Shown here piece after piece: positions 7,009 through 26,107 of a stretch of 26,306 nt of DNA. Made by a program: the position numbers and the translations under genes. The stretch is taken from positions 1 to 26,306 of IMG/VR virus record IMGVR_UViG_3300008261_000141. One strand, 5' to 3'. The notes under the pieces are model-generated. The model was not told where the DNA came from, made no database searches, and saw nothing but the letters and a program-made list of their open reading frames with translations. Numbering within the stretch: position 1 is the stretch's first letter; each line of letters opens with the position of its first letter. This stretch comes from a virus.

Positions 7009-7745
7009 GCGTAGTTCATCTTTAGTGAGGTATAAACCATGTCAATGCACTCGTCCATTTCCTCGTCCAACTTGAACAGGATTTCACCACGCCACTCTGA
7101 TTGGCGCTCCCACAGTTCGTCATCGTTGTCTTGGTCTGCAAGTTGTTCCCACAACTTTGCTTCCTCGCTGTCGTCAGACGGGTTGGGGTCAATTTCCTTT
7201 TCGGCTACTGTTGTGCCCCTGTAGAACACGGCGAAACATGCGTATGCTTCACTCTCCTCTGTAGTGCTCATGCCAAATACTAAGTTTGGGTACAGTTCAG
7301 AGATTTTACGCAACAGTCCCATTGGTGGCGACCATGCGCTCTCACAATAGAAACCATAGTAATCTTTGGTTTCGTCATAGTCATTAGGGTCAATACGCAC
7401 ATCGCATGCGCCCCACTTGGTGTCCCAGTTGATGTTTGCCCAGTCGTACCAGTCTTTTGCACCGTACTTGGCGAGGTTTGCCTCTTGCTTTGCTTCTAGT
7501 GCAATCTGTTCAGCCTTCTTACTTCCGTCCTCATTGTTGCCATAAAATCCTGACACCGTGTCTGACAATTCAGTTGGAATAGGGAATAGTTGATTGAGTG
7601 AGTGCTCGTAGGTAATGCCGTCAATCTCGTACTTGTTGGTGTTGTTGCTGTCCTCTTTAGACACTACTTTTGTGTCCTCAATGAACTTCAAGATTTCGTG
7701 TGGCTTACCTTTTACGGTAATGTTATTGAACGCCCAATTAGGCAT
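7005..7745 (-). CDS. DUF1281/Api92-like ferredoxin-fold phage protein (246 aa)
   Basis: The N-terminus MPNWAFNNITVKGKPHEI, FPIPTEL near residue 54, the WDTKWGACDVR stretch near residues 107-117 and SAWSPPMGLLRKISELYPNL near 136-155 are the landmarks of the DUF1281 (Api92-like, ferredoxin-like domain) family found on phages and plasmids. Its biochemical role is not established. An acidic insertion (DPNPSDDSEE) lies near the C-terminus. It overlaps the 93-residue gene upstream by 8 bp and is the second gene of the promoter-I cassette. Confidence 0.85.
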   Translation of the reverse strand: MPNWAFNNITVKGKPHEILKFIEDTKVVSKEDSNNTNKYEIDGITYEHSLNQLFPIPTELSDTVSGFYGNNEDGSKKAEQIALEAKQEANLAKYGAKDWYDWANINWDTKWGACDVRIDPNDYDETKDYYGFYCESAWSPPMGLLRKISELYPNLVFGMSTTEESEAYACFAVFYRGTTVAEKEIDPNPSDDSEEAKLWEQLADQDNDDELWERQSEWRGEILFKLDEEMDECIDMVYTSLKMNYA

Positions 7746-8019
7746 AATTGTTGTCCTCGTCTTTCAGTTTGATTTTGTATTGAAGTAACTGTATGAACTT
7801 ACTTGTGTCCATCTGTCCGTCTTTGTCACACTTGTATGCAGTAGCACGCAAGAGATTGTCGCCATAGATATAAAAGTTGATTGCGAAGTCTGTACCGTGT
7901 GGGTAATACCACTCGTCATGGTCTCCGTAGAACTCATAATTGGCTTCGGCAGTCATGTGTGCTAAGTAACCCTCTGCAAAGGTTGTTAGAAACATGAGGG
8001 CTTGTGGTGTGATGTCCAT
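7738..8019 (-). CDS. Unknown protein (93 aa)
   Basis: MDITPQALMFLTTFAEGYLA is followed by DHDEWYYPHGTDFAINFYIY and a Lys-rich end. No family is recognised. The start codon lies 6 nt after the -10 of promoter I, predicting a leaderless mRNA. First gene of a five-gene cassette. Confidence 0.78.
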   Translation of the reverse strand: MDITPQALMFLTTFAEGYLAHMTAEANYEFYGDHDEWYYPHGTDFAINFYIYGDNLLRATAYKCDKDGQMDTSKFIQLLQYKIKLKDEDNNYA

Positions 8020-8025
8020 ATGATT

Positions 8026-8069
8026 AGTTTAGTACTTTGTACTGTTTCAAGTCAAGTGGTAGATGTCAC
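8026..8069 (-). promoter_or_regulatory. Promoter-operator copy I (leaderless type)
   Basis: Operator GTGAC-ATCT-ACCAC, -35 TTGACT (8050-8055), 18-nt spacer and -10 TAAACT (8026-8031), 6 nt to the ATG. The operator carries the stop of the upstream gene (8066-8068). Confidence 0.88.
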
Positions 8070-8299
8070 AGCACAGGGTCTTGAAAGGTAGTGTCGTCTA
8101 CCTTGATGTAATGCGAGATAATCTTGTCTGATGTTTCGCTCATCGCCAATGATGTGACCTCACGACCAAAGAGATTGTCCTCTACGGTATAAACCAGCGT
8201 GTGCATTGGACGCTCGTACTTCTGTCCATCGGGAGTAAAGCACTCCAATGCGATTTCCACACGACTGTTGATTGGTACTACTACTTTTGTTGTATTCAC
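8066..8299 (-). CDS. Unknown small protein (77 aa)
   Basis: MNTTKVVVPINSRVEIALEC is followed by HTLVYTVEDNLFGREVTSLA. It looks beta-rich and no family is known to me. It starts with GTG in a GTGA overlap, with GGAG 7 nt upstream. Last gene of the promoter-J cassette. Confidence 0.75.
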   Translation of the reverse strand: MNTTKVVVPINSRVEIALECFTPDGQKYERPMHTLVYTVEDNLFGREVTSLAMSETSDKIISHYIKVDDTTFQDPVL

Positions 8300-8796
8300 T
8301 TCGGTTCTCCTGTTGCTGTTGTTGTTGATTTTGTATTTCCCCCCACAGTTAGTTTTACTCCTGTGTAACTTACACCTGTACTGCTTACATATGGCTCAAT
8401 GAATAGTACAAAGTTTGGATTGTCTCCATCGCAACCACCTGCACCTTCCATGACATATGCACTAATAGTTGTATAACGGTTTATCTTTTGTAGAAACTGT
8501 TCACTAAAGTTGTTGGCATACATATGCACCATTGACACATTGTCCATAGCGACTATTTTGCCCCACATGAAAGTATCCCTGTATCCATCTACAAACTCAA
8601 TACTAATTAGGTGCTTTTCAATGTATTGAGATACGCTGTCTAACTTAGACAATGCAGTAAGCACTCGTTGGTTTTGAGTTAGTGACAACATTGGCTCATC
8701 TACATAGTAACTATCGGGAATACCTACATTGGCAATACCAATGTTCCCTGTCACGATGTTGTTATTGCCTACTACATTTCCAATGCCAGTAATCAT
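8296..8796 (-). CDS. Unknown protein with Gly/Asn repeat start (166 aa)
   Basis: The start MITGIGNVVGNNNIVTGNIG is a Gly/Asn-rich repeat. Residues about 37-49 read LSLTQNQRVLTAL, which strongly resembles MSLAENQRVHNALSAL in the protein at 15863-16180. The middle is mixed alpha/beta (SIEFVDGYRDTFMWGKIVAM). The C-terminal part is Ser/Thr/Gly-rich. The Gly/Asn motif recurs in the 439-residue protein at 20573-21892, so this might be a virion-associated or binding protein that lies away from the structural module (inference). Confidence 0.75.
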   Translation of the reverse strand: MITGIGNVVGNNNIVTGNIGIANVGIPDSYYVDEPMLSLTQNQRVLTALSKLDSVSQYIEKHLISIEFVDGYRDTFMWGKIVAMDNVSMVHMYANNFSEQFLQKINRYTTISAYVMEGAGGCDGDNPNFVLFIEPYVSSTGVSYTGVKLTVGGNTKSTTTATGEPK

Positions 8797-9017
8797 GCTT
8801 CAATCCACTCTAAGTCAATGTTGTATAAATAAACCACATGCCCTTCAGGTGCGTAGTACTTCACATACCCACCTGAAAAATCGTCCTCAAAATCCTCATT
8901 GACATTTCCAATGTATTTTAGTTTGGAGACTTCCTCTTGCCCGTAGTACTCATTAGTATTCACAGACGGAATACGCAAGCCCTCTGCAATAAGGTCAGGA
9001 CGAACTACATATGGCAT
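8793..9017 (-). CDS. Unknown small protein (74 aa)
   Basis: MPYVVRPDLIAEGLRIPSVN is followed by acidic and Tyr-rich stretches (EDFEDDFSGGYVKYY, VVYLYNIDLEWIEA). No family is recognised. TAATG overlap with the gene before and ATGA with the gene after. Confidence 0.75.
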   Translation of the reverse strand: MPYVVRPDLIAEGLRIPSVNTNEYYGQEEVSKLKYIGNVNEDFEDDFSGGYVKYYAPEGHVVYLYNIDLEWIEA

Positions 9018-9217
9018 TACTCGTCGTCCACTTCTAATTCAATTTCTACAAGTTCATACACCACTTGTTGTAGAACTTCGTTGCCCAATTCAACAACTCG
9101 CTCGTGAACATAGTCGCCAACTGTTTCAAGGGCTTCCATCGCTTGCTTTTGTGTGTAGTGTGGGTACATGGCTTGAATATCGTGCCACGACCACTTGACA
9201 ATGATTTCGTCAGACAT
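9017..9217 (-). CDS. Unknown small phage protein (66 aa)
   Basis: MSDEIIVKWSWHDIQAMYPH is followed by TQKQAMEALETVGDYVHERV and ELGNEVLQQVV. I recall similar short proteins (VxW..xD...PxW...) from actinophages, function unknown. The start at 9215-9217 overlaps the upstream stop as TAATG, with AAGGAG in front. The longer frame is a shadow. Confidence 0.77.
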   Translation of the reverse strand: MSDEIIVKWSWHDIQAMYPHYTQKQAMEALETVGDYVHERVVELGNEVLQQVVYELVEIELEVDDE

Positions 9218-9462
9218 TAGAACTCTCCTTGTTCTGTGATGTCGTAGTTCAAGTATGTCCACACATCTTGATTTACGCTGTCATAACCACCATTGGCATC
9301 AAACACTTCAACAGCCCTCAGCCACTCCTCTGAGTCTGCTGGTAATACTGTGTCATTGACACCATCACCAATGGTGAACAAGTTTGCTTCCCACCATGAG
9401 ATAGCAATTTCCTCGTCAGGGTTTAGTTCCCTAAGTAGTTCAATGGCTTTGCTTACTTTCAT
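9217..9462 (-). CDS. Unknown small phage protein (81 aa)
   Basis: MKVSKAIELLRELNPDEEIA is a start common among small phage and bacterial proteins of unknown function. Further on are SWWEANLF and DSEEWLRAVEVFDAN. First gene of the promoter-J cassette. The leader carries GGACAC and AAAAGGAG. Confidence 0.8.
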   Translation of the reverse strand: MKVSKAIELLRELNPDEEIAISWWEANLFTIGDGVNDTVLPADSEEWLRAVEVFDANGGYDSVNQDVWTYLNYDITEQGEF

Positions 9463-9493
9463 ATAACGCTCCTTTTGCGTGTGTCCTGTAAGT

Positions 9494-9537
9494 AGTTTAG
9501 TTTGTGCCCAATGTTGGAGTCAAGAGACAACCGTCAC
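9494..9537 (-). promoter_or_regulatory. Promoter-operator copy J (leadered type)
   Basis: Operator GTGAC-GGTT-GTCTC, -35 TTGACT (9518-9523), 18-nt spacer and -10 TAAACT (9494-9499), then 7 nt to a leader beginning GGACAC and ending AAAAGGAG. It drives five genes down to 8066. Confidence 0.88.
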
Positions 9538-10019
9538 TAGAAGTGGAAGTCCCAAACAACTGCGTACTGTTCTGCTGGGTTGTCTGCACAGCGCTTACGA
9601 AACGCTTCTAAGTTTGATGTGTACTCAACTGTGTCGTAAATCTGTTTGTCATGGTTGTACTCACCACTAACTAATTGCAATACCTTTTGTGCCCTGTATA
9701 AATCAAGACCATACTTATCGTTCTCGTGCATGAGAATAATTTCAGAGATAGTCATGTCACCAATTTCAGACAAGTAGCGTTCTTTTGTCTGTTGGATTAC
9801 TTCTTGGAACTCTTGCAAGTGCTTGTCAAACAGTTCAGCGTTCTCTGCGTAGCAAACCGTGTCTTTGTCATCAAACATGCCTGCCCAGCGTCCACCTACT
9901 TCTGACCAATCTGACCAATCGCATGGGTTGTAATCCTCTTGATTGACCCACATGGTTGCCATACTTACTGCGTCCTCGTGGCTCTCTGCTTCTACTAATA
10001 ACATGTGTGGTATGTGCAT
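9537..10019 (-). CDS. Unknown phage protein with GGRW motif (160 aa)
   Basis: MHIPHMLLVEAESHEDAVSM starts an alpha/beta N-terminal region. WSDWSEVGGRWAGMF near residues 35-49 and the final YAVVWDFHF match a pattern I recall from actinophage proteins of unknown function. Helices rich in Glu and Gln follow. It has its own leader (GGACACAACAAAAGGAG) and a -10-like TAAAAT, but no operator. Confidence 0.78.
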   Translation of the reverse strand: MHIPHMLLVEAESHEDAVSMATMWVNQEDYNPCDWSDWSEVGGRWAGMFDDKDTVCYAENAELFDKHLQEFQEVIQQTKERYLSEIGDMTISEIILMHENDKYGLDLYRAQKVLQLVSGEYNHDKQIYDTVEYTSNLEAFRKRCADNPAEQYAVVWDFHF

Positions 10020-10048: not shown

Positions 10049-10054
10049 ATTTTA
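10049..10054 (-). promoter_or_regulatory. -10 (TAAAAT) without the operator, downstream of whiB
   Basis: TAAAAT followed by 7 nt and then GGACAC...AAAAGGAG copies the promoter-G start region, but 18 nt upstream there is no TTGAC and no operator. Instead the spacer has the inverted repeat GGTAAG/CTTACC (10058-10075). The -10 overlaps the TAA of the WhiB gene. It could depend on an activator (inference). Confidence 0.45.
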
Positions 10055-10348
10055 TTTGGTAAGTAACTTCTTACCGTATTTCTTTCGCTCGTGTTCTGAT
10101 GTGCCACCCCATATACCTTTGCATTTGTTGTCTAGTGCGTACTGTAAGCAACTCTTACGAACTACACATTTCATGCAATAGTTTTTCTTTATACTAGTTG
10201 CTTTCCTAGTTTGACCTGCTTCAACAAAGAATATATTTGGGTCTAAGCCCCTACAGGCGCTTTGTTTGCGCCATGTAGGTGGCTCGGACAACACTTCATA
10301 ACTGTCGTACTTGTCTAATGAGTCGTAGTTCAGATATGTACTTGACAT
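10052..10348 (-). CDS. WhiB-like transcriptional regulator (98 aa)
   Basis: Four cysteines in WhiB spacing (C32, C58, C61, C67, the last three as CMKCVVRKSC) would hold a [4Fe-4S] cluster. GIWGG at 78-82 is the family turn, followed by the basic tail ERKKYGKKLLTK. WhiB proteins are actinobacterial and act with the principal sigma factor. Phage copies can alter host or phage transcription. It starts 2 nt after the DUF932 gene and lies beside a promoter lacking the usual operator. Strong family call, target unknown. Confidence 0.93.
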   Translation of the reverse strand: MSSTYLNYDSLDKYDSYEVLSEPPTWRKQSACRGLDPNIFFVEAGQTRKATSIKKNYCMKCVVRKSCLQYALDNKCKGIWGGTSEHERKKYGKKLLTK

Positions 10349-15449: not shown

Positions 15450-15866
15450 CTATTCAAGAAGGAGTGAAAACCTCAGTTTGGATAAATCGTCAATCGGTTC
15501 TCCCAATTGCGGTAAATACCCAAGAAATAACTGCTTTTCCATTCTTGTGTCGTTTGCCACACAACACTCATCACAGCGACAACCTTGTCTGTACCTTGTA
15601 TTTGTGCCGTGGTTTTTCAATGCAGTCTTTTTTACTTTATCTTTATAAAATACACTGCGTTCGTTTGGTGTAAGTCCACCCCACATGCCCCATGTTTCAT
15701 TTTTACCTTCTTCAAGACATTGTTCCCATACAGGACAGGTAAAACAAACTTCTCTACCAATAGAGTAGTACTGCTCTGGTGAATCTGATTCCATAGGTGG
15801 ATACCAAAATTCACAATTTATCTTTTTACAAAGAGCCTGGTCTCTCCAGTCATCTACCCATCTCAA
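15450..15866 (-). CDS. WhiB-like regulator with Cys-rich C-terminal extension (138 aa)
   Basis: C13, then C41, C44 and C50 (CFTCPVWEQC), give the WhiB iron-sulfur ligand spacing, and GMWGGLTPNER (60-70) is the family turn. Beyond the normal end, HGTNTRYRQGCRCDECC (86-102) resembles a small zinc-binding motif (HGT...Y..GCRC..C) seen in other phage proteins. The protein therefore looks like a WhiB core plus a second metal site. It starts with TTG in a TTGA overlap and is the last gene before the terminator. Confidence 0.88.
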   Translation of the reverse strand: MRWVDDWRDQALCKKINCEFWYPPMESDSPEQYYSIGREVCFTCPVWEQCLEEGKNETWGMWGGLTPNERSVFYKDKVKKTALKNHGTNTRYRQGCRCDECCVANDTRMEKQLFLGYLPQLGEPIDDLSKLRFSLLLE

Positions 15867-17090: not shown

Positions 17091-17244
17091 AACCCTCAGT
17101 TGGTATTTTATTCATCACTTCTAATTTATGAGCATGACGTTTTGGGTTTTGACAGGTAGGAGCAGTAGTAGGACGAACATATAACCACACCCGCATCTGA
17201 CAGTTTGGACACTGGTAGGCGTACATTGGTTTCTTTTGAGACAT
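17071..17244 (-). CDS. Zinc-ribbon-like small phage protein (57 aa)
   Basis: CPNC at 12-15 and CQNPKRHAH near residues 31-39, with APTC before it, form a four-ligand site of CxxC...CxxxxxHxH type. The shape resembles short phage proteins that recur in actinophages (from memory). It has the TAATG overlap with the 477-residue gene and GGGAG upstream. Confidence 0.78.
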   Translation of the reverse strand: MSQKKPMYAYQCPNCQMRVWLYVRPTTAPTCQNPKRHAHKLEVMNKIPTEGYAQSNR

Positions 17245-18677
17245 TACTGCTGTTCTCCCAAATCAATTATTTCGCTATACATAGCATCTGTAGCCGAAGG
17301 GCTTAGTCCTCCGTTCGGTAGTTGTTTTGCTGTTTCTCCTGCTTTAGCCCCAAAGAGCCGTGACAATACTCCGCTAGAACCTCGTGCCTCTACCTCAAAC
17401 CGAACCAAGTCACGGGTGTCAGAAATGTTTTTAAACTTCTCAATGAGGTCAAACACCCTGTCCATTTCAGTAGACAGACTGGAGTCAAGACCCTGACCTT
17501 CCAGTTCTTCAGCGAAGCGAGCGAACATCACACGACCTAATTGCATCTCCACAATTGCCCTAAGTGCTGCCTGAAGTTGGTCTTTAGTACGAATCTCAAT
17601 TGGCAACTTAAATGCACATTCAGAATGTTCCTTGAAACTAGGACAACGAGAGGCGAGATAACAATTATCGCACTGCCTTAAAGGGTCAGCGTTGTAGCGT
17701 AAAACGTTGACCTTTTCAGGCTGTAATTCTATAGATTCCCCTTCATTATCAACGGTTTGCGAACCTATTGAGGTGATGGTCTCTACCCCCATTACAGGTA
17801 ATAATAGACGTTCACTCTCGTGCCGCTTCTCAGGCTGTGGGGTAATAATAGAGGGATACCCTGAAACCGCATTTGGGGTAGTAGGTGTAGAAGGTGACAT
17901 AATAATTATGTCGTCGTTTTCGTCGTCGTTATCGCTCATGTTAGTGACCTCACTTGTAGGGTCATAGGCCCCAAATACACGACTCTCATATGCTTGCCAA
18001 GAACGAATAGCGAGCATACCAACTGCCTCTACTTCGTCATCCATCAAGGACTCAAACTGAATACCTAGACGCTCAATATCTGCTTTGTGGCGCTTCCTTG
18101 ATGAGTCCTTTTGCTGTGCTGGGTATCGGCGCAATCCGTGACCATCCCACACCTGTGTCTCTCCGTAGCGAATGGCGCTTGTCCAAGAGCCAACAACCAC
18201 CGTATCCCATTGGATACCTTCTATGAAGTCAGGTTTTGAGGTCAAACCCACAGCCTTTACAGACCAGCGCTGAATCAGTCCGTTAATGCGATTGACAATT
18301 GCAGGGGTAATCGCCTTATCACTGATAGCCACACGTCCGTAACGCTGACAGAGGTGGGCAAGCCTTTCTAAGTCTCCGTCATTCCATACTGGCACGTACT
18401 TATCCCCTAGCCAGTTACCGTCATAGTCAGGGCGACCAACAATAAGAGTAAGTTCGTCTGAATGTTGTCTTAAAAACTCATCAAAACGGTGAAGGTCTTC
18501 GTCGTTCTCAGAGGTGTACAGCAGTACTTCCCCATGGTTAAACATCTCTGGAAGGGTGAGTATCTTCCTTTTAGGGATGTTGAAATGGGTCAGGTTTAAG
18601 GCGTAGCGCTTGACATCGGCAGACACCAGCATTGAACGATGTGTGCCTTTTTCCGCTCCACCAAAGTAGATTTTCAT
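17244..18677 (-). CDS. Multidomain phage protein of unknown function (477 aa)
   Basis: From MKIYFGGAEKGTHRSM the first 230 residues look like a continuous alpha/beta domain with repeated strand-helix units (ELTLIVGRPDYDG, GRVAISDKAIT, VKAVGLTSKPDF, TVVVGSWTSAIR), suggestive of a TIM-barrel-like fold. Then follows an acidic, Ser/Pro-rich linker (about 240-320), a four-Cys motif CDNCYLASRC...C (336, 339, 345, 354) and a helical C-terminal part. I cannot name it. The start at 18675-18677 overlaps the previous stop as ATGA. A longer frame upstream is a shadow. Confidence 0.8.
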   Translation of the reverse strand: MKIYFGGAEKGTHRSMLVSADVKRYALNLTHFNIPKRKILTLPEMFNHGEVLLYTSENDEDLHRFDEFLRQHSDELTLIVGRPDYDGNWLGDKYVPVWNDGDLERLAHLCQRYGRVAISDKAITPAIVNRINGLIQRWSVKAVGLTSKPDFIEGIQWDTVVVGSWTSAIRYGETQVWDGHGLRRYPAQQKDSSRKRHKADIERLGIQFESLMDDEVEAVGMLAIRSWQAYESRVFGAYDPTSEVTNMSDNDDENDDIIIMSPSTPTTPNAVSGYPSIITPQPEKRHESERLLLPVMGVETITSIGSQTVDNEGESIELQPEKVNVLRYNADPLRQCDNCYLASRCPSFKEHSECAFKLPIEIRTKDQLQAALRAIVEMQLGRVMFARFAEELEGQGLDSSLSTEMDRVFDLIEKFKNISDTRDLVRFEVEARGSSGVLSRLFGAKAGETAKQLPNGGLSPSATDAMYSEIIDLGEQQ

Positions 18678-18922: not shown

Positions 18923-19397
18923 TGTCAGTCCAATTCCTTTCGGCTTTTAGTAATGCTTGTCCGTCTATTTCTTCAATCAAAGAATCCCATTGTTTTATTT
19001 CTTTATCTTGATTCCATTCAGGTCTAGCAACGTAGGGGACACTCACAAGTAGTGATGGTATACCTTCTTTTAGAGTAAGCGCAACCATCTTGGGGTCTAT
19101 GTCTATATACCAATCAACTCGTCCCATGCCTGCATAAATTGCTCGCACACGGTCTAAGCGATGGTCTAAGCCAGTGTCTTGGCTGAAATCAATAGAGCCT
19201 GCCTTATACCCTTCACGCTTTAACCATTCTGTGATGATTGGGTATTTATCTTTAGGTATGCCATCAACAAGTACACAAATGCGTCCATTGTATTTTGTAA
19301 AAAGCATGTTCCATAAGGTGCGCCCATGCTTGCTTGGTTGACGAGCACCTATTTCTTCTGCTGGTAGCGCTAGTACATCGTAAGTAACGATAATCAC
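18915..19397 (-). CDS. HAD-like phage protein, probably not catalytic (160 aa)
   Basis: Segments WNMLFTKYNGRICVLVDGI, VDWYIDIDPKMVALTLKEG and SVPYVARPEWNQDKEIKQWD have the look of the C-terminal half of HAD-like proteins that phages carry beside nucleotidases. The classical DxDx(T/V) nucleophile motif is not evident, so the assignment rests on this pattern only. Overlaps its neighbours by one and eight bases. Confidence 0.72.
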   Translation of the reverse strand: MIIVTYDVLALPAEEIGARQPSKHGRTLWNMLFTKYNGRICVLVDGIPKDKYPIITEWLKREGYKAGSIDFSQDTGLDHRLDRVRAIYAGMGRVDWYIDIDPKMVALTLKEGIPSLLVSVPYVARPEWNQDKEIKQWDSLIEEIDGQALLKAERNWTDIE

Positions 19398-19858
19398 TAG
19401 TCGTATAGCCCCAGTTCAATACGCTGACGATGTGTGTAGTACTCAGCGGCTGGACAATACATACAGAGGTATTGGCGTTTATCTAATGGAATGCCAACCT
19501 TACGTCCAATTGTTTTATCATCATTGCACCAGTCAATGCACCCTTGAGTAGGGCGATTATGTCGGTTGTAGCATTTCAGTGCATCTACTTTAAGTTCATC
19601 ACGGAAATCACGAATGAATACATCTTGCTCTTTCAATTCATTTTTAAGAGCGGTTTCTATATCCAACTTAGACGCTGTGTCTGCATCAGTACGGTAAATG
19701 AGTGCCCTACATTCTTCAGGGTTAGGCACTTGGGCATTGTGTCGGTCACATAGTTCACGCAACTCTTGGTCATACTCTGGTGGACCGTCATATGGTCGCA
19801 TTTTGTACATGACTCCATGAGTCTTACAAACAAGAAGGCGGTTCATTGGTTCTGACAT
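19397..19858 (-). CDS. Cys/His-rich phage protein (153 aa)
   Basis: C11 and H14 near the start, CDRHN (37-41), CYNRHNRP (96-103), CIDWC (107-111) and YLCMYCPA (131-137) give about ten ligands, probably two metal sites. This Cys-rich type occurs in actinophages without known function (from memory). It has TAGGAG upstream. Its mRNA could begin in the 62-bp gap 19859-19920, where I see no clear promoter. Confidence 0.77.
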   Translation of the reverse strand: MSEPMNRLLVCKTHGVMYKMRPYDGPPEYDQELRELCDRHNAQVPNPEECRALIYRTDADTASKLDIETALKNELKEQDVFIRDFRDELKVDALKCYNRHNRPTQGCIDWCNDDKTIGRKVGIPLDKRQYLCMYCPAAEYYTHRQRIELGLYD

Positions 19859-19920
19859 CTAATGCTCCTAGTAGTGGTAGTCACATATGTTACACAATGT
19901 GTCTACAAATCCCTACACGC

Positions 19921-20337
19921 TTACTTTTTCTTTTTACCTTTGCCCCTACGAATGGTTGGGTAACCATCTTCGCCAGTAGTAATAAGGGGTTTTTTAGGCA
20001 CTTGCCCAGTCCCACCTTTAGCCTTGTCAATAAGGTTGCGAGGAGCAATGTCAGACAAACGGGCTTCTTGACCTGTGTATTCTGGCTGTGCACCTGGGTC
20101 ATATGACTCATCAAAGTTAGGGTCAATCTTTTGTGACAACTTTGAGTCAAGTGAGATAATCTTTGCACCAATACGTTCTGCTACTGACTTGCGTTTAGGA
20201 CGCTCAATACCATGAGGTGGTGCATCATCTGGACCAGACTCTGGAATAGGCATTACCGCAGGATGGTTACGGCGTTTAAACGCATTGATGTCTACAATGC
20301 GTGCGTCGTTATGACGCTCATCGTCACCCCTAGCCAT
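19921..20337 (-). CDS. Basic protein with the MAxGxDERHN start (138 aa)
   Basis: MARGDDERHNDARIVDINAF is one of five small proteins with this shared start. The rest is Pro/Lys/Gly-rich and low in hydrophobic residues, ending RRGKGKKKK, so it is probably disordered and nucleic-acid- or virion-associated. Last gene of the structural module. It overlaps the 77-residue gene by one base. Confidence 0.78.
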   Translation of the reverse strand: MARGDDERHNDARIVDINAFKRRNHPAVMPIPESGPDDAPPHGIERPKRKSVAERIGAKIISLDSKLSQKIDPNFDESYDPGAQPEYTGQEARLSDIAPRNLIDKAKGGTGQVPKKPLITTGEDGYPTIRRGKGKKKK

Positions 20338-20570
20338 TAGTGGTTACTGATTCCAGAAACGGTGCGACGGCGGTTTGAGTAAGGAGTTGGGTCGTCTGCT
20401 GCTGGGTTGCGAGTAGAGATGTTGTACTGTTCTTGAAGAACCGAAGCACGCTGTGCTGGGTCAAGGGGTTCTACTTCACCACCACGGCCTGGAGTCAAAC
20501 TTTTAAATGTTCCATCCGTAAGACCCAATGATAGGTCGTGGTTTAGTGAGCGAGATTCATTAACTGCCAT
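20337..20570 (-). CDS. Small polar protein (77 aa)
   Basis: MAVNESRSLNHDLSLGLTDG is followed by a polar tail with SNRRRTVSGISNH. Only the MAVN start is shared with the 439-residue protein upstream. No family is recognised. Likely virion-associated by position. Confidence 0.75.
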   Translation of the reverse strand: MAVNESRSLNHDLSLGLTDGTFKSLTPGRGGEVEPLDPAQRASVLQEQYNISTRNPAADDPTPYSNRRRTVSGISNH

Positions 20571-20572
20571 GA

Positions 20573-21892
20573 TTACTTACCCTTCTTAGTTTGTTTCTTT
20601 ACAGGGGCTTTAGCCTTCAAAGCAACTTTAGGTTTCTGTGAAGTGTTGCGAATTGCAGGAGTTTTTGCTGCGGCTTTTGCAACTGTTTTCTTAGCAGTTG
20701 TTTTTGCTTTTTCTGCTGGTGCTTGAGCCGCTGGTGCTGGAGCAGTGCTTCCTTGTGTATCACGCTTAGGTTGAACTGCTGAAGGCTGTACACCACCGTA
20801 ACCTGGGTCTTCTCCAGCAGGCATCAATCGTTGTCCACCTACGGTGTATTCACGATCATCAACTGTTCCATCTGGATACGAACGAGGTCCAATTTTTCCT
20901 GCGCCTGCTGGCTCAAGTGTACGCTTATCAAAACCAGTTACTGGTCTGCGCTGACGAAGACCAGTAGGTGCTGACGCTTGCGGTGCACTTGGTGCTTGTT
21001 GTTCTGGTGCACTTGGTGCTTGGGTAGCAGGTGCACTAATTGCTGGAGTGGCTGGAGTAGAAGCAGGTGCTCCACTAATTCTTTCTTGTGCTGCTGTTGC
21101 TGCGGCACGCTCACCTGGAGTTGCACCTTGTGCTGCTACGGCTTCAATCTTTTCTTTACGAGTACGCACGTCTTTTGTTCCTTGTGGTTTTGCTGGTGTC
21201 GGCGTTCCTGCTGTTCCAGGCCCCAAAGCACCAATCGGTTTTGGACCTGAGCCTACAGGAGTTGGAGCGGCTGGTCCAGCACCTACTGGGGTTGGACTAC
21301 CACCAGCAGGAAGTGCCTTTGGTGCTGGAGCGCCACCTACTGGAATTGGAGTTCTTCCAGGCTTAGTACCTTTAGGTGCAGGTCCAGCAGGAGCAGGTGC
21401 TGTAGCACCAGCAGTTGGTGCTGGTCCTCCTGCTTGGTAGTTACCAATGCCCATGTTTCCACTGTTGGTGTTGTTATCACCAATCATGTTGCCGATACCA
21501 CCAGCGTTGTTTTGACCGCTGACATTTCCAATACCAAAAGCGTTGTCACCGAATTGGTTCTGAATCGTAATACCACCAGCGCCGCCACCACCTTTACCAA
21601 ATGCTCCACGGCGACCACGAGTGTTTGCAGTTTGTTGTTGCTGTCGCTGGTCAACTTGTTGTGAGCCATAATCAGGACGACCCAAAGCATTAGATACTTG
21701 GAACGGAGCGCCTTGTGCGGCTCCTGGCTCTTTACGACTACCTACAGGTGCGGCTTGTGGAGTTGAACGTGTTTGCCAGCCAGTCTTACCAACTTGCTCT
21801 CCCAATGGACCTGTACGGTCTTGGCCTGATTTCATCATGTTGCGTCCAGCCCATTGTGCTTGTTGAACGCCTTCCCATGGATTTACTGCCAT
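20573..21892 (-). CDS. Low-complexity Ala/Pro/Gly-rich structural-type protein (439 aa)
   Basis: After MAVNPWEGVQQAQWAGRNMM come a polar Gln-rich region, a glycine run (about 99-107), and a Gly/Asn motif region (about 107-152: FGDNAFGIGNVSG, GGIGNMIGDNN, GNMGIGN). Long Ala/Pro/Gly stretches (150-370) lead to a Lys/Ala-rich tail (KTTAKKTVAKAAAKTP, then KKQTKKGK) resembling histone-H1-like tails. Probably disordered, and either virion- or DNA-associated. The minus-strand frame is real and the plus-strand frames opposite it are shadows. Exact role unknown. Confidence 0.8.
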   Translation of the reverse strand: MAVNPWEGVQQAQWAGRNMMKSGQDRTGPLGEQVGKTGWQTRSTPQAAPVGSRKEPGAAQGAPFQVSNALGRPDYGSQQVDQRQQQQTANTRGRRGAFGKGGGGAGGITIQNQFGDNAFGIGNVSGQNNAGGIGNMIGDNNTNSGNMGIGNYQAGGPAPTAGATAPAPAGPAPKGTKPGRTPIPVGGAPAPKALPAGGSPTPVGAGPAAPTPVGSGPKPIGALGPGTAGTPTPAKPQGTKDVRTRKEKIEAVAAQGATPGERAAATAAQERISGAPASTPATPAISAPATQAPSAPEQQAPSAPQASAPTGLRQRRPVTGFDKRTLEPAGAGKIGPRSYPDGTVDDREYTVGGQRLMPAGEDPGYGGVQPSAVQPKRDTQGSTAPAPAAQAPAEKAKTTAKKTVAKAAAKTPAIRNTSQKPKVALKAKAPVKKQTKKGK

Positions 21893-21895
21893 AAA

Positions 21896-22192
21896 TTAAC
21901 CCCACAAACTTTGCATTGAGTATCGGCTAGAACTTGAAAAATTATCTTCCATAAAGCCATTACGAAACATAACTGGTGCCCCAGAAACCCATGACCTATA
22001 GGAAACGTCTTGCCGTGGCATATCAAGAATATCTAAAATTCCCAACTCTTGCTTGCCAAAACCTCGTGATTGGGGCATTAATTGCTGTGGAACTACTGGG
22101 CGAATTTGCCTAATAGTGTCTTGGTCTGAGATGGCTGATTCAAGCGCTAGGTCTACCAGCATCTCTTGACGTGACGCCCATGGTTTAGCCAT
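21896..22192 (-). CDS. Unknown small protein (98 aa)
   Basis: MAKPWASRQEMLVDLALESA is helical, followed by a polar, Arg/Ser/Gln-rich region with RYSMQSLWG at the end. It starts by TAATG overlap with the gene before it. No family is recognised. Confidence 0.76.
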   Translation of the reverse strand: MAKPWASRQEMLVDLALESAISDQDTIRQIRPVVPQQLMPQSRGFGKQELGILDILDMPRQDVSYRSWVSGAPVMFRNGFMEDNFSSSSRYSMQSLWG

Positions 22193-22434
22193 TAATCGCT
22201 TAACTCACCTTCAGAGAAGCCTGTAAGGTCCACCCAGTTCTTACCAGTTGGTCCTATACCTTCATTGTCGTTGTTGCGAGCGTCTTCTACGTCCCAAGGA
22301 GCAACCCAGTTAGAGGGCATCTGAACTTCTTGAGTTCCAGGAAATGCCCTCTTGACCATATGCACAGCACGAAACATCTCTCGTGACATTGGTCGTCGCC
22401 GTAGGTTATCTCGCTCGTCTTTTCCTTTAGCCAT
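22192..22434 (-). CDS. Small protein with the MAKGKDERDN start (80 aa)
   Basis: MAKGKDERDNLRRRPMSREM carries the shared N-terminal signature, then MVKRAFPGTQEVQMPSNWVA and an acidic tail. After the first 14 or so residues it is unlike the other bearers. TAATG overlap with the gene before it. Confidence 0.78.
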   Translation of the reverse strand: MAKGKDERDNLRRRPMSREMFRAVHMVKRAFPGTQEVQMPSNWVAPWDVEDARNNDNEGIGPTGKNWVDLTGFSEGELSD

Positions 22435-22805
22435 TAGTGGGGTACACCATTCCAGTAAGGGCGTGGCTCTGAAGGCTCGTCACCTGGACGGGTACGGTCT
22501 AACTCACCATCTGGCATATTACGATTGTAGAAAGTTTCTTCTAGTACTTCTGATGGCATAGAAGTTCCTAATTTGTTAATTAGTCTTTCGTCATCTGGAG
22601 TTGCTCCACCACTATATGCGTTGTCGCCAAGTTCTTGTTGGTTTTTATAAGCATCAAGAACTCCACTAGCCTCATCGTTGCTAATCCCATACAAACGAGA
22701 CATCCCAGCAACTAGGCGAGGCTGTCGTCGCATAGGTTTGAGGTTATGCCCACCGTGTGGCGTAGATGGGTTTCCGATTATGCGTCCTCGGTGGTCTGTT
22801 GTCAT
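22434..22805 (-). CDS. Unknown protein with DHRGR start (123 aa)
   Basis: MTTDHRGRIIGNPSTPHGGH shares DHRGR near its start with the protein at 24340-24552. Then come RLYGISNDEASGVLDAYKNQ and a polar acidic end. AAGGAG precedes the ATG. The 46-bp gap upstream (22806-22851) holds AT-rich TATTAA and GATAAACT stretches that might be a -10, with no convincing -35. Confidence 0.76.
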   Translation of the reverse strand: MTTDHRGRIIGNPSTPHGGHNLKPMRRQPRLVAGMSRLYGISNDEASGVLDAYKNQQELGDNAYSGGATPDDERLINKLGTSMPSEVLEETFYNRNMPDGELDRTRPGDEPSEPRPYWNGVPH

Positions 22806-22851
22806 GGACTACTCCTTAAAACTGGCTTTTAATACTGCTCTAGTTTATCAG

Positions 22852-23139
22852 TTACAGAGTTTCATCTTTATCGGTGTCTTCTGGCATATCGTTAACCTTT
22901 GGTATTCCTGTGGTCCTACGCATGCGAGATTCCCACGCTATTCTTGCCAAAAGTTGTGACGCAGGGGATGTATATGTTCCTGGTCCTTGTCCTTCCCATT
23001 CAAGGTCGGAAACTGGGACATTTGCCGCATGTCTCTCAGCAATGAATTGTTGGTCAGGTGTCATCCCATGCTCAGACAGGAAATCTTCTTTACCGACTTT
23101 TCTCTTTGGATTATGTCGTTCGTCGTTGCCGTTAGCCAT
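22852..23139 (-). CDS. Small protein with the MANGxDERHNPKRK start (95 aa)
   Basis: MANGNDERHNPKRKVGKEDF is the clearest form of the shared N-terminal signature. It is followed by a helical stretch (SPASQLLARIAWESRMRR) and an acidic tail. I start at the ATG at 23137-23139, which overlaps the upstream stop as TGATG. A start four codons earlier would hide the signature. Confidence 0.8.
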   Translation of the reverse strand: MANGNDERHNPKRKVGKEDFLSEHGMTPDQQFIAERHAANVPVSDLEWEGQGPGTYTSPASQLLARIAWESRMRRTTGIPKVNDMPEDTDKDETL

Positions 23140-23420
23140 CAGCAGTCCCAAGCCCTTAATGACTTGTTGATACGACTATCTGGGTCATTGGCTGTCTTGG
23201 CAGAAGTGTTTTTCTTCTTCATACCTTCCATACGAGCACAAAAAGAGTCACGGCGAGCAGCAGACTTCTTAGACTTAGCAGCCTGTTCCTTCTTAACTGG
23301 CGGTTTAAGGTCTGAACCAGGATTTGCTCTTTCATAAGACTTGCGCCCTTTTTCATTGAGACCACCTTTTTCGTTCTTTCCTTCTTTGCGTTGCCACGCT
23401 TCTGACTTTTTGGTTGCCAT
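23139..23420 (-). CDS. DUF6321-like phage protein (93 aa)
   Basis: NEKGGLNEKGRKSYERANPG near residues 16-35, LKPPVKKEQ near 38-46, then SFCARMEGMKKKNTSAKTAN and DPDSRINKSLRAWDC at the end match the DUF6321 family widespread in phages. It is highly basic. The role is not known, though it is usually near structural genes. TAATG and TGATG overlaps with its neighbours. Confidence 0.88.
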   Translation of the reverse strand: MATKKSEAWQRKEGKNEKGGLNEKGRKSYERANPGSDLKPPVKKEQAAKSKKSAARRDSFCARMEGMKKKNTSAKTANDPDSRINKSLRAWDC

Positions 23421-23584
23421 TACTTTTTACCTTTTTTAGACACAGCCATATTGTCTACAAGATTTGGGTATGGGCGACCAGCAGCCTTGGCACGAGCCTT
23501 GGCTTTTGCCTTTTGGTCTGGTGTTAACTTTGATGATTTCTTTTTAGGATTTTCTTTATCCCATACTTCTTTTTTAGAAGCCAT
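23420..23584 (-). CDS. MASKKEVWDK-type small basic phage protein (54 aa)
   Basis: MASKKEVWDKENPKKKSSKL then PDQKAKAKARAKAAGRPYPN is a short Lys/Ala-rich helix ending in PYPNLVDNMA, a familiar tiny phage protein, probably DNA- or virion-associated. TAATG overlaps on both sides support translation. Confidence 0.82.
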   Translation of the reverse strand: MASKKEVWDKENPKKKSSKLTPDQKAKAKARAKAAGRPYPNLVDNMAVSKKGKK

Positions 23585-23901
23585 TATTCTCCCATTGAAG
23601 CGCCACGTCGTACTTGGTTCTGGTGCTGTGATGTTGTTGTTGAATACTTATCCTCTGGAATTACCCAACCTTGTGACTGACTATGTACTCCAATAGGAGT
23701 TGCATAGGAGTGAACTACGTAGTCAATGTCGTTTAGTGCCTCAATGGACTTGCGGCTACCTTCTGACATTTTTCCAAAATGAAGTTGGTCTCCTGGACCT
23801 GTGTGGGTACGAGCAGAAAGTGCCCCACCCGTCACAAAGGCTTCACGGCGACTGATTGGTTCAAATGCTTTGCGGGCAGTTGTTTTGATTGGCTTTGCCA
23901 T
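23584..23901 (-). CDS. DUF8033-like small phage protein (105 aa)
   Basis: DIDYVVHSYATPIGVHSQSQ and KYSTTTSQHQNQVRR recall the small phage family with SY.TPI...YS.TTS.HQN, here preceded by a basic helical start (MAKPIKTTARKAFEPISRRE). Name given from memory, so the domain number is tentative. TAATG overlap with the next gene. Confidence 0.78.
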   Translation of the reverse strand: MAKPIKTTARKAFEPISRREAFVTGGALSARTHTGPGDQLHFGKMSEGSRKSIEALNDIDYVVHSYATPIGVHSQSQGWVIPEDKYSTTTSQHQNQVRRGASMGE

Positions 23902-23903
23902 AA

Positions 23904-24164
23904 TTACTCCTCATCACTTAGACTAGTGCCTTGATTTTTAAGGCTTTGGGTGGACGCTACTCCTAGGTATTCTCCAGTTTCTGGATTCTCTATGTACTCA
24001 TAACCTTTTGCTGGTTGTTTTACACCACGAGAACTAGCAATACGAACACGAGTTCCTGCTTCTACGTTTGCTATAGGAGCAAAAGCATCAAGACCTACTG
24101 GGTCAAACTCCACTATGCTTGGGCGTCGTTTAGGGTTATGTCGTTCGTCTATACCGTTAGCCAT
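23904..24164 (-). CDS. Small protein with the MANGxDERHNPKRR start (86 aa)
   Basis: MANGIDERHNPKRRPSIVEF is followed by VEAGTRVRIASSRGVKQPAK and YEYIENPETGEYLGV. The shared signature is followed by a body different from the other bearers. TAATG overlap with the gene before it. Confidence 0.8.
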   Translation of the reverse strand: MANGIDERHNPKRRPSIVEFDPVGLDAFAPIANVEAGTRVRIASSRGVKQPAKGYEYIENPETGEYLGVASTQSLKNQGTSLSDEE

Positions 24165-24337
24165 TAGTCCTCCATGTACTGTTCTTCATTGTCTTCTTGT
24201 TCCATGATTTTTCCTTGAGCACGAAGACCAGCCTCAAGCCTGTTCATCAAAGTATCTATTTGAGACATGGAAGCATCCAACTCAGCACGACCAACCTTAC
24301 GCTTAGGATGGTTACGAGTGTCTTCTCCGTTAGCCAT
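24164..24337 (-). CDS. Small protein with the MANGEDTRNHPKRK start (57 aa)
   Basis: MANGEDTRNHPKRKVGRAEL followed by an amphipathic helix (SQIDTLMNRLEAGLRAQGKI) and an acidic end. The start is the ATG at 24335-24337 with GGAG upstream. The earlier in-frame ATG lies in the end of the upstream gene. Confidence 0.78.
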   Translation of the reverse strand: MANGEDTRNHPKRKVGRAELDASMSQIDTLMNRLEAGLRAQGKIMEQEDNEEQYMED

Positions 24338-24339
24338 GT

Positions 24340-24552
24340 TTATTTGCTCCAACCTTCTGGAAAATCATCGTCGTCTAGTCCTTCAGTTGGGTAGTTATTT
24401 TGAGTACCCTTACCCTCAGACTTCCATGTATCCTTTGAGTCTTTTTTACTGTCGTCTTGCTTTGGCTCGTAGGGTGCTTCCCAGTCTGGCTCATGTAATG
24501 GGTAAGGGTGATGGTTTGGATTAATCCACCTACCACGATGGTCAAAAGGCAT
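24340..24552 (-). CDS. Polar small protein with DHRGR start (70 aa)
   Basis: MPFDHRGRWINPNHHPYPLH shares DHRGR near its start with the 123-residue protein downstream. The rest is a Lys/Asp/Ser/Gly-rich acidic tail, probably disordered. Function unknown. Confidence 0.76.
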   Translation of the reverse strand: MPFDHRGRWINPNHHPYPLHEPDWEAPYEPKQDDSKKDSKDTWKSEGKGTQNNYPTEGLDDDDFPEGWSK

Positions 24553-24563
24553 AAAACTGTTCC

Positions 24564-25619
24564 TTACTCGTAACGAGGGCGTTGTTTAGGGTATGCACCA
24601 ATTTTACCGTAACTTGTATCAACCCTGTAATCTTTTGAATGTTGTCCAAAGTGGCTGTAGTCGTAGTCTTCATCTAGTGGTTCTTGTATAAACCTTGATG
24701 GCATACCCATAGCATCAGCCCTATTGTCTGTGTACTCTTGCGGCTCAAACACGCCTTGGTCTTCATCCATAGCGTAAACATCACTTGGACGCATACTAAG
24801 TACGCTTCTCCCACCTTCTGCTCTTTTATATTTAGTCTTTAACTTTTCTGCTTCTTTTGCAGCACCACGTGCTGTAACAAAACCACGACTGGTGTGTACA
24901 GGTGCACCTGTTTCGTATGTCCAGCCACCTTCTTCTGGTCCACCGTAAGCATCTGATAATTCGTGAACTACTGCACGATATGGAGCAATCTTTTCTTTTA
25001 GGCGTTGCCCACGAGTAAGGTTTCTTGTACTGGCACGGTTTGTTGCTTTTGCCTCACCCAAATCCTTGGCTTCGTAAATACCTTTAGGACCTTCTGGTGT
25101 TTCATAACTTGGAGTACGCATACCATATGGTTGGGCAGTTTCTTTACGCATTTCAGGGTTTGAATCGCTTAAAGCGTAACCAACGGCATGCTTTCCTAAA
25201 ATGGCTGCAAGTGTGGTGTGTCTGGATGTTTGACCAGGTTTTGGAGGAACAGACAAGTTTTTAACTTTATCTGATTCCTGTTCGTATAGTTGCTTTAGCC
25301 CTAGTACGTCTTCTGGACTGTCCTCATATTGGTGTATGAAACCGTTATATAGTTCTGCTTTGCCCATTGCATCTGTTAGTTGTTTATCCCTACGTTTAGC
25401 AATAAACTTGTCATCTTCAATACTTTTTGAAAAAGTATTAGGTCCTACACGGTCTCCATAATCTTCGTAATCTTTTAGTATTCCACGCTGTTCACCAGTA
25501 CTGGCAGAGGTTGGTCTAATCAGAGCAGTAGCAACACGACGCTGAACTTTGGCGGTACGGGACAACTTATCAGGGTCATCGCCTACCATGCGGTCTGTGT
25601 CTACTCGCTTAAAGCGCAT
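24564..25619 (-). CDS. Unknown structural-region protein with an internal YGGPEEGGW domain (351 aa)
   Basis: The N-terminal 200 residues are helical, charged and Lys/Arg/Asp-rich. Residues about 214-275 (APYRAVVHELSDAYGGPEEG, GWTYETGAPVHTSRGFVTAR, AAKEAEKLKTKYKR) look like the small phage family known for YGGPEEGGW, here inside a larger protein. The C-terminal part is acidic and Tyr-rich. I start at the ATG at 25617-25619, 6 nt after GGAG. A GTG one codon upstream is closer to it than usual. Confidence 0.78.
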   Translation of the reverse strand: MRFKRVDTDRMVGDDPDKLSRTAKVQRRVATALIRPTSASTGEQRGILKDYEDYGDRVGPNTFSKSIEDDKFIAKRRDKQLTDAMGKAELYNGFIHQYEDSPEDVLGLKQLYEQESDKVKNLSVPPKPGQTSRHTTLAAILGKHAVGYALSDSNPEMRKETAQPYGMRTPSYETPEGPKGIYEAKDLGEAKATNRASTRNLTRGQRLKEKIAPYRAVVHELSDAYGGPEEGGWTYETGAPVHTSRGFVTARGAAKEAEKLKTKYKRAEGGRSVLSMRPSDVYAMDEDQGVFEPQEYTDNRADAMGMPSRFIQEPLDEDYDYSHFGQHSKDYRVDTSYGKIGAYPKQRPRYE

Positions 25620-25621
25620 CA

Positions 25622-26107
25622 CTATCTCCAGGCTGGGGCTAGGGCTTTGAGCCTAGAGCGACGCTCAGGACTCATTTGTTGGGCATCATCGTAGTTTTGG
25701 TCGCCACGAGTAATTCCTTTAGGTCCTACTTTACCATCATTGGTAAGTCTGACTGGTTCAGCACCTGGAGGAGCAAACTTCATACCTTGTGATTGAAGAT
25801 TTAGACCAGTCCATTTGTTGAACTCATCAGGCCAAATGTAATCACCTGGATTAATACGCTCACCTTTGTGCACACCACGTGAGTACTGACGAGCGTTATT
25901 ACGACTGAGAGTGCCCAGTGTTTTATCTTGTCGTCGGTTAGACGACATTGTGCCAAGGTATCCATCTGGGTAAGTAGTGTCTGGCTGGGACTTATAACCA
26001 GACAGCATCTGGTCTTTTGCACTACGAAATACTGGAGACAATCCAAAACCACCGCCACCATTACTTTGGTCTGGATTAGACCATGAGGTAAAGGTATTCG
26101 CAGCCAT
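25622..26107 (-). CDS. Unknown structural-region protein (161 aa)
   Basis: MAANTFTSWSNPDQSNGGGG is followed by SRGVHKGERINPGDYIWPDE and MKFAPPGAEPVRLTNDGKVG. Polar, Gly/Asn/Arg-rich. No family is named. TGATG overlap with the preceding 45-residue gene, stop adjacent to the next gene's start. Confidence 0.78.
   Translation of the reverse strand: MAANTFTSWSNPDQSNGGGGFGLSPVFRSAKDQMLSGYKSQPDTTYPDGYLGTMSSNRRQDKTLGTLSRNNARQYSRGVHKGERINPGDYIWPDEFNKWTGLNLQSQGMKFAPPGAEPVRLTNDGKVGPKGITRGDQNYDDAQQMSPERRSRLKALAPAWR

Follow-up and report, generated by a model that had tools for sequence, protein, structure and literature searches.

What holds a short N-terminal peptide constant on several small proteins that otherwise differ? 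The question is raised by the window analysed here, a linear 26.3 kb fragment of a virus contig without a near relative among deposited phages. The sequence-only reading had reported five genes with a common N-terminal signature, differing bodies and DNA that differs at synonymous sites, and we found the signature in all five ORFs where it had been placed, with the consensus M-A-x-G-x-D-(E/T)-x-x-(N/H)-(P)-x-R-x (tag A; Table 1). For the genes ending at 22852 and 24164 the listed ORFs begin further upstream at TTG, the natural starts being the ATG codons at 23139 and 24337. A degenerate DNA pattern of the tag matched four of the five genes at three or fewer mismatches, compared to 0.00 matches expected from 100 dinucleotide shuffles.

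Table 1 Tagged genes of the window and the conserved or leader-bearing genes around them
Feature	Coordinates	Strand	Description
Tagged protein 1	24164..24337	-	57 aa; MANGEDTRNHPKRK; tag MANGEDTRNHPKRKVGR then body; tag score 39; ORF calling
Tagged protein 2	23904..24164	-	86 aa; MANGIDERHNPKRR; tag MANGIDERHNPKRRP, small beta-barrel-like body
Tagged protein 3	22852..23139	-	95 aa; MANGNDERHNPKRK; tag MANGNDERHNPKRKVGK then body; profile match
Tagged protein 4	22192..22434	-	80 aa; MAKGKDERDNLRRR; tag MAKGKDERDNLRRRP then body; profile match
Tagged protein 5	19921..20337	-	138 aa; MARGDDERHNDARI; tag MARGDDERHNDARIVDINAFKRR, DDAPPHGIERP motif, basic tail
Second leader MPFDHRGR	24340..24552	-	70 aa; DHRG leader family
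Second leader MTTDHRGR	22434..22805	-	123 aa; DHRG leader family
Conserved block marker	25622..26107	-	tblastn homologue of Streptomyces phage BRock gp48
gp47-like conserved block protein	21896..22192	-	same block in 5/5 larger freshwater-type contigs
gp45-like conserved block protein	20337..20570	-	block comparison
gp42-like protein	19397..19858	-	DpdA-side boundary of tagged block
Small basic protein	23139..23420	-	homologous to C-terminus of a cyanophage protein annotated structural (T4 GC0119)

About 90 related loci were gathered by querying with window positions 24564-25622 plus the conserved neighbour 25622-26107, and 80 related loci were fetched with the latter as marker. Running the 14-residue signature search that had been proposed for the tag over related IMG/VR contigs, we recovered 186 starts, which belong to 113 distinct proteins on 52 contigs. 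The distribution of profile scores had no middle ground and reversed peptides gave no match above 10 bits, so that this control and the shuffles together rule out chance likeness. The core of the tag approximates D-(T/E)-R-x-(H/N)-P-x-R-(K/R)-(V/P); Gly occupied position 4 in 95 of the 96 distinct tags, and every tag had Arg at position 13, though both residues are largely fixed by the seed pattern and therefore describe the family without testing it. Bodies behind the tag formed ~41–46 sequence clusters at two cut-offs, or 58 once the variant leaders MxGHRDDG..AHHPGRQV and MDxQxxHPxRKTDR were counted, with up to six tagged proteins per genome. Identity between different bodies ranged from 0.22 to 1.0 over residues 1–15, was 0.35 at residue 17 and lay at a background of 0.05–0.08 from residue 18 onward, which bears out the claim that the bodies differ. 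An unbiased N-terminus comparison of all block proteins likewise gave one leader cluster of 126 proteins, 58 body clusters and 65 contigs; MAGHRDDGTFAEDKAHHPGRQVSR and MDSQSQHPARKTDR are examples of the variants that it takes in. Some misjoins are present in the leader clusters, which were built by single linkage. Tag A is a peptide common to dozens of otherwise unrelated small proteins of one tailed-virus family.

Searches beyond this family returned little. A first wide tag pattern gave mostly chance matches, and two looser patterns, applied to the full set of virus contigs, recovered this clade again together with a single contig of 62% GC (G018). Among the cellular genomes of 84,980 species the tag pattern had three matches, no excess over chance, with loci judged by count alone, while tblastn against known phages gave no match to the 22-aa tag, a query so short that power is low. 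The 52 tagged proteins compared with PHROGs and Pfam had no meaningful match and belonged to no recognised family that would show a role, and the open-access literature searched, with subscription journals and preprints outside its scope, held no description of the tag. Two further motifs were seen within the proteins: an internal D-x-(T/A)-P-x-x-G-x-x-R-P that recurs in numerous block proteins with or without a tag (window 19921-20337; L010, L051, L053, L061, L093), and a weak C-terminal motif, approximately NDGxxPxSGFSxxE, common to several tagged proteins (window 22192-22434; L014, L086).

We then considered the kind of conservation. In the five window genes Gly4 was encoded by GGT, GGA or GGC and Arg13 by CGA, CGT, AGA or CGC, in line with the reported synonymous differences, and the bases ahead of the start codons were unlike among the tagged genes. 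Because synonymous codons differ, conservation is at the peptide level; recent (tandem) duplication, which had been named as a competing explanation, is ruled out by the differing codons and the unlike flanking DNA. Tag identity between different bodies was higher within genomes than across genomes (0.58 vs. 0.47), and the within-genome likeness was significant in all 30 random genome sets that shared no close bodies (permutation p ≤ 0.001). A binding partner common to the tags of one genome would enforce such likeness at the peptide level.

Gene position was assessed in two groups of relatives, a low-GC group labelled freshwater-type and a high-GC group labelled soil-type, names that are not based on sample records. 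The clade is contractile-tailed, with matches to portal (phrog_64), major head protein (phrog_1357), sheath and baseplate. In the five larger freshwater-type contigs (G002, G012-G015; 69–97 kb), which may be incomplete, all tags within the contigs as given were in a single block and none in the structural module. This block is bordered by SpoVS/Cas4/RecA/PolA on one side and by gp42-like/DpdA on the other, and its set of tagged genes is hypervariable between relatives. Since replication genes and DpdA flank the freshwater-type block, away from the head genes, the term "virion region" that the sequence-only reading had applied to the window is wrong.

Other genes of the window were characterized alongside. 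The gp48-like protein (25622-26107) has more than 50 invariant columns in 30 phages and no confident AlphaFold2 fold (pLDDT 54), as would be seen if its folding required a partner. The small basic protein at 23139-23420 is 57–99% identical in the larger freshwater-type contigs, placed differently in different genomes and apparently mobile; its relatives include cyanophage and Pelagibacter phage proteins, which resemble it in their C-terminal part. A link to the virion through the "structural" annotation of its cyanophage homologue was set aside, as T4-GC119 is called hypothetical by Sullivan (2010). Window genes 17244-18674, 10052-10348 and 15450-15866 include a DpdA-like tRNA-guanine transglycosylase homologue, which points to possibly modified phage DNA, and two WhiB-like proteins, recognised by inspection, which point to an actinobacterial host. 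Hosts are probably actinobacteria, judging from the WhiB-like genes and from kinship with Streptomyces phages.

Among the high-GC relatives, tagged genes had a different position. The 62% GC contig carried three of them between terminase and portal-scaffold-capsid, and a scan of 80 portal relatives gave 8 distinct tagged proteins in high-GC contigs. In contigs that span both ends, all of these were encoded after terminase, or after p117 next to it, and before portal. In shorter high-GC contigs without TerL, the tagged genes were just upstream of portal, and the sole credible tag of a 115.7 kb contig (G019) was in the terminase-portal interval. Searched as a regular expression, the core motif had 10 matches (5 distinct proteins) inside this interval (31,504 aa) vs. 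0 outside it (152,634 aa), with the core internal or near the C-terminus in some interval proteins. Low-GC portal relatives in the scanned set had no tag in the interval, and low-scoring TTG matches over the scaffold gene (G019, L266, L270) were dismissed as out-of-frame artefacts. Tag-bearing high-GC lineages are few and several loci are near-duplicates, so that gene position gives good but not conclusive support for a connection of tag A with the head.

Cultured relatives have the same framework. The block backbone, in the order gp48/47/45/42/DpdA, is common to the window clade and the Streptomyces phages BRock, LuckySocke and GiJojo; in the Borockvirus-like phages among these (BRock, LuckySocke) the block and head genes are homologous and collinear, with portals 53–54% identical to that of G018. 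No tag was found in the terminase-portal proteins gp71-75 of LuckySocke, one of the closest isolated relatives, and no tagged start in the translated block proteins of all three phages.

On balance, we consider it probable that tag A is a docking signal that brings small variable cargo into the phage head, working like the T4 capsid targeting sequence. A signal for loading cargo fits best the combination of a constant short leader, fast-changing bodies, a shared partner and a position beside head genes in relatives. The capsid-targeting idea of the sequence-only reading is thereby retained in part, since the peptide is conserved, the constant leader, variable bodies and hypervariable gene set are as in T4 internal proteins, and high-GC relatives carry their tagged genes in the interval from terminase to portal; its placement of the window's own genes among virion genes is the part that did not hold. 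Points that count against the docking signal are the position of the tagged block outside the structural module in the window's own clade, the untagged head interval of LuckySocke, the negative S78 protease search in six larger records, the small number of tag-bearing high-GC lineages and the lack of a recognised family for any tagged protein. Mechanistically, a short flexible docking signal on small, fast-changing accessory proteins would bind an assembly partner in the head, which may be scaffold, portal, capsid interior or packaging complex. Tagged proteins would then be loaded into or onto the particle, probably to be delivered with the DNA, and the cargo could have an early role in infection, such as countering host defence.

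A partner inside the cell could account for many of the same observations, if the tag were a short linear motif recognised by host RNA polymerase, the ribosome or a replication or host-takeover complex and not by the virion. The freshwater-type block, between RecA/Cas4/PolA/SpoVS and DpdA and away from head genes, is consistent with this, as are the several bodies that are zinc-ribbon-like or disordered, and the likeness of tags within a genome suits any shared partner. The restriction of tag and core motif to the terminase-portal interval in high-GC relatives argues against it, and we regard an intracellular partner as a credible but rather unlikely alternative.

Leaders other than tag A bear on whether the shared starts need a binding function at all. 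The two window genes in which the motif DHRGR had been noticed (22434-22805 and 24340-24552) are indeed related, as members of a second leader family that comprised 45 proteins and 30 body clusters in the unbiased comparison. This leader, M-x-x-(D/N)-H-R-G, precedes ~30 different bodies in 37 contigs (including L012, L053, L063, L069, L077, L101), at times on bodies that bear tag A elsewhere. A third leader, approximately (D/E)H(L/I)xxxQ(F/L), was observed in G002 (7432-8964), G011 (9187-9846), G012 (19898-20527), L241 (791) and L270 (9436-9992), on other proteins; two of these gave weak matches, one PARP-like and the other ParB-like. High-GC relatives carry this third leader in the same terminase-portal interval as tag A. 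When leaders were compared across whole genomes (9 contigs, 1,022 predicted proteins), only tag A, EHLxxxQF-type leaders (two small clusters) and DHRG were on at least three bodies. The body SAESTGGGxTDSH was found behind four kinds of leader (tag A, a short form of tag A, an HRG leader and a RGGAGAGRGDNPH leader), and the body of 22852-23139 has the untagged start MPRKRKRK in L008/G005. As read from these sequences, leaders are exchanged between phages on the same body.

Such exchange would also occur if the 5′ ends of genes, and the shared starts with them, had spread through recombination or gene conversion, as a scaffold for gene birth without any binding function. Within-genome codon identity at shared residues was slightly above that expected from codon usage (0.48 vs. 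0.40), which is in the direction of this explanation, and was 0.57 when one body was compared between genomes. These values give little sign of recent DNA copying among the tags of a genome, while some gene conversion among them may have occurred. The same residues are, however, written in different codons behind upstream sequence that is not shared, residue preferences are sharp at most of the 14 positions, and the core motif is also found inside proteins and close to a C-terminus, all of which make spread without function improbable.

Structure prediction is relevant to a further alternative, that tagged proteins are one ancient paralogous family whose common fold can now be recognised only at the N-terminus. 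AlphaFold2 gave tagged protein 2, which has 9 homologues among related contigs, a mean pLDDT of 46 over residues 1–10 and mostly 73–88 over the body, so that the tag is predicted to be disordered ahead of a small barrel body. Fold-search matches to this SH3-like body were weak (best E 0.03) and uninformative. A few bodies do share weak C-terminal motifs such as NDGxxPxSGFSxxE, as common ancestry would leave, but bodies range from apparently disordered through zinc-ribbon-like to SH3-like, identity is at background by residue 18 and the same body occurs behind other leaders, which leaves this origin very doubtful. An RNA-level signal, with the first codons conserved for translation initiation or coupling, is least plausible of all, as some tagged genes overlap the preceding gene's stop but wobble positions are free to vary and flanking bases are unconserved.

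If tag A is a loading signal, it may remain on its cargo: the HK97-type prohead protease (Peptidase_S78) was not found in six larger records, which gives no sign of processing, while a search for the T4-type protease (S77) was uninformative because no control gave a match either. More speculatively, and with less confidence than in the docking signal itself, the leaders could form a modular system for addressing cargo across an extensive and largely uncultured clade of actinophages with contractile tails, in which interchangeable, uncleaved leaders (tag A, DHRG, EHLxxxQF) would each bind a head component and dozens of injected accessory proteins would be swapped between two genomic cargo sites. 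If tag A is a docking signal, it would provide a sequence handle by which virion cargo could be recognised directly in metagenomic sequence of uncultured phages, in which such proteins carry just the label "hypothetical" at present, as the T4 leader did for internal proteins of T-even phages. It would also be a natural, exchangeable loading tag for capsids beyond the T4 lineage, and would turn what freshwater and soil actinophages inject into a testable question.

Like tag A, the T4 capsid targeting sequence (IpI-III, Alt) is a short N-terminal peptide on several small, unrelated, variable accessory proteins whose bodies turn over quickly; we take its sequence to be different from that of tag A. 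Bodies are more numerous here (~41–58 in the clade as a whole and as many as 6 in one genome), tag A is evidently exchangeable with other leaders, and its core may be internal or near the C-terminus. T4 internal proteins are a diverse set with only the targeting sequence in common, encoded by ip genes in two separate loci, and are injected, with Ip1-3 inhibiting type IV restriction enzymes (PMC3012670, PMC12373910). The T4 leader is cut off by the prohead protease (PMC5694885), whereas here six larger records had no S78 protease, there is thus no sign of cleavage, and packaging of the tagged proteins is putative. Extracellular contractile injection systems of the PVC type resemble the proposed system in that an N-terminal signal loads varied cargo into a phage-like particle (PMC11495950) and differ from head loading in that cargo enters the tail tube with help from an AAA ATPase. 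In the giant phage SPN3US, N-terminal segments of inner-head and ejection proteins are likewise thought to steer proteins into the prohead, though these propeptides are mostly >100 residues long and cleaved by the prohead protease (PMC5694885), compared to ~15 residues for tag A.
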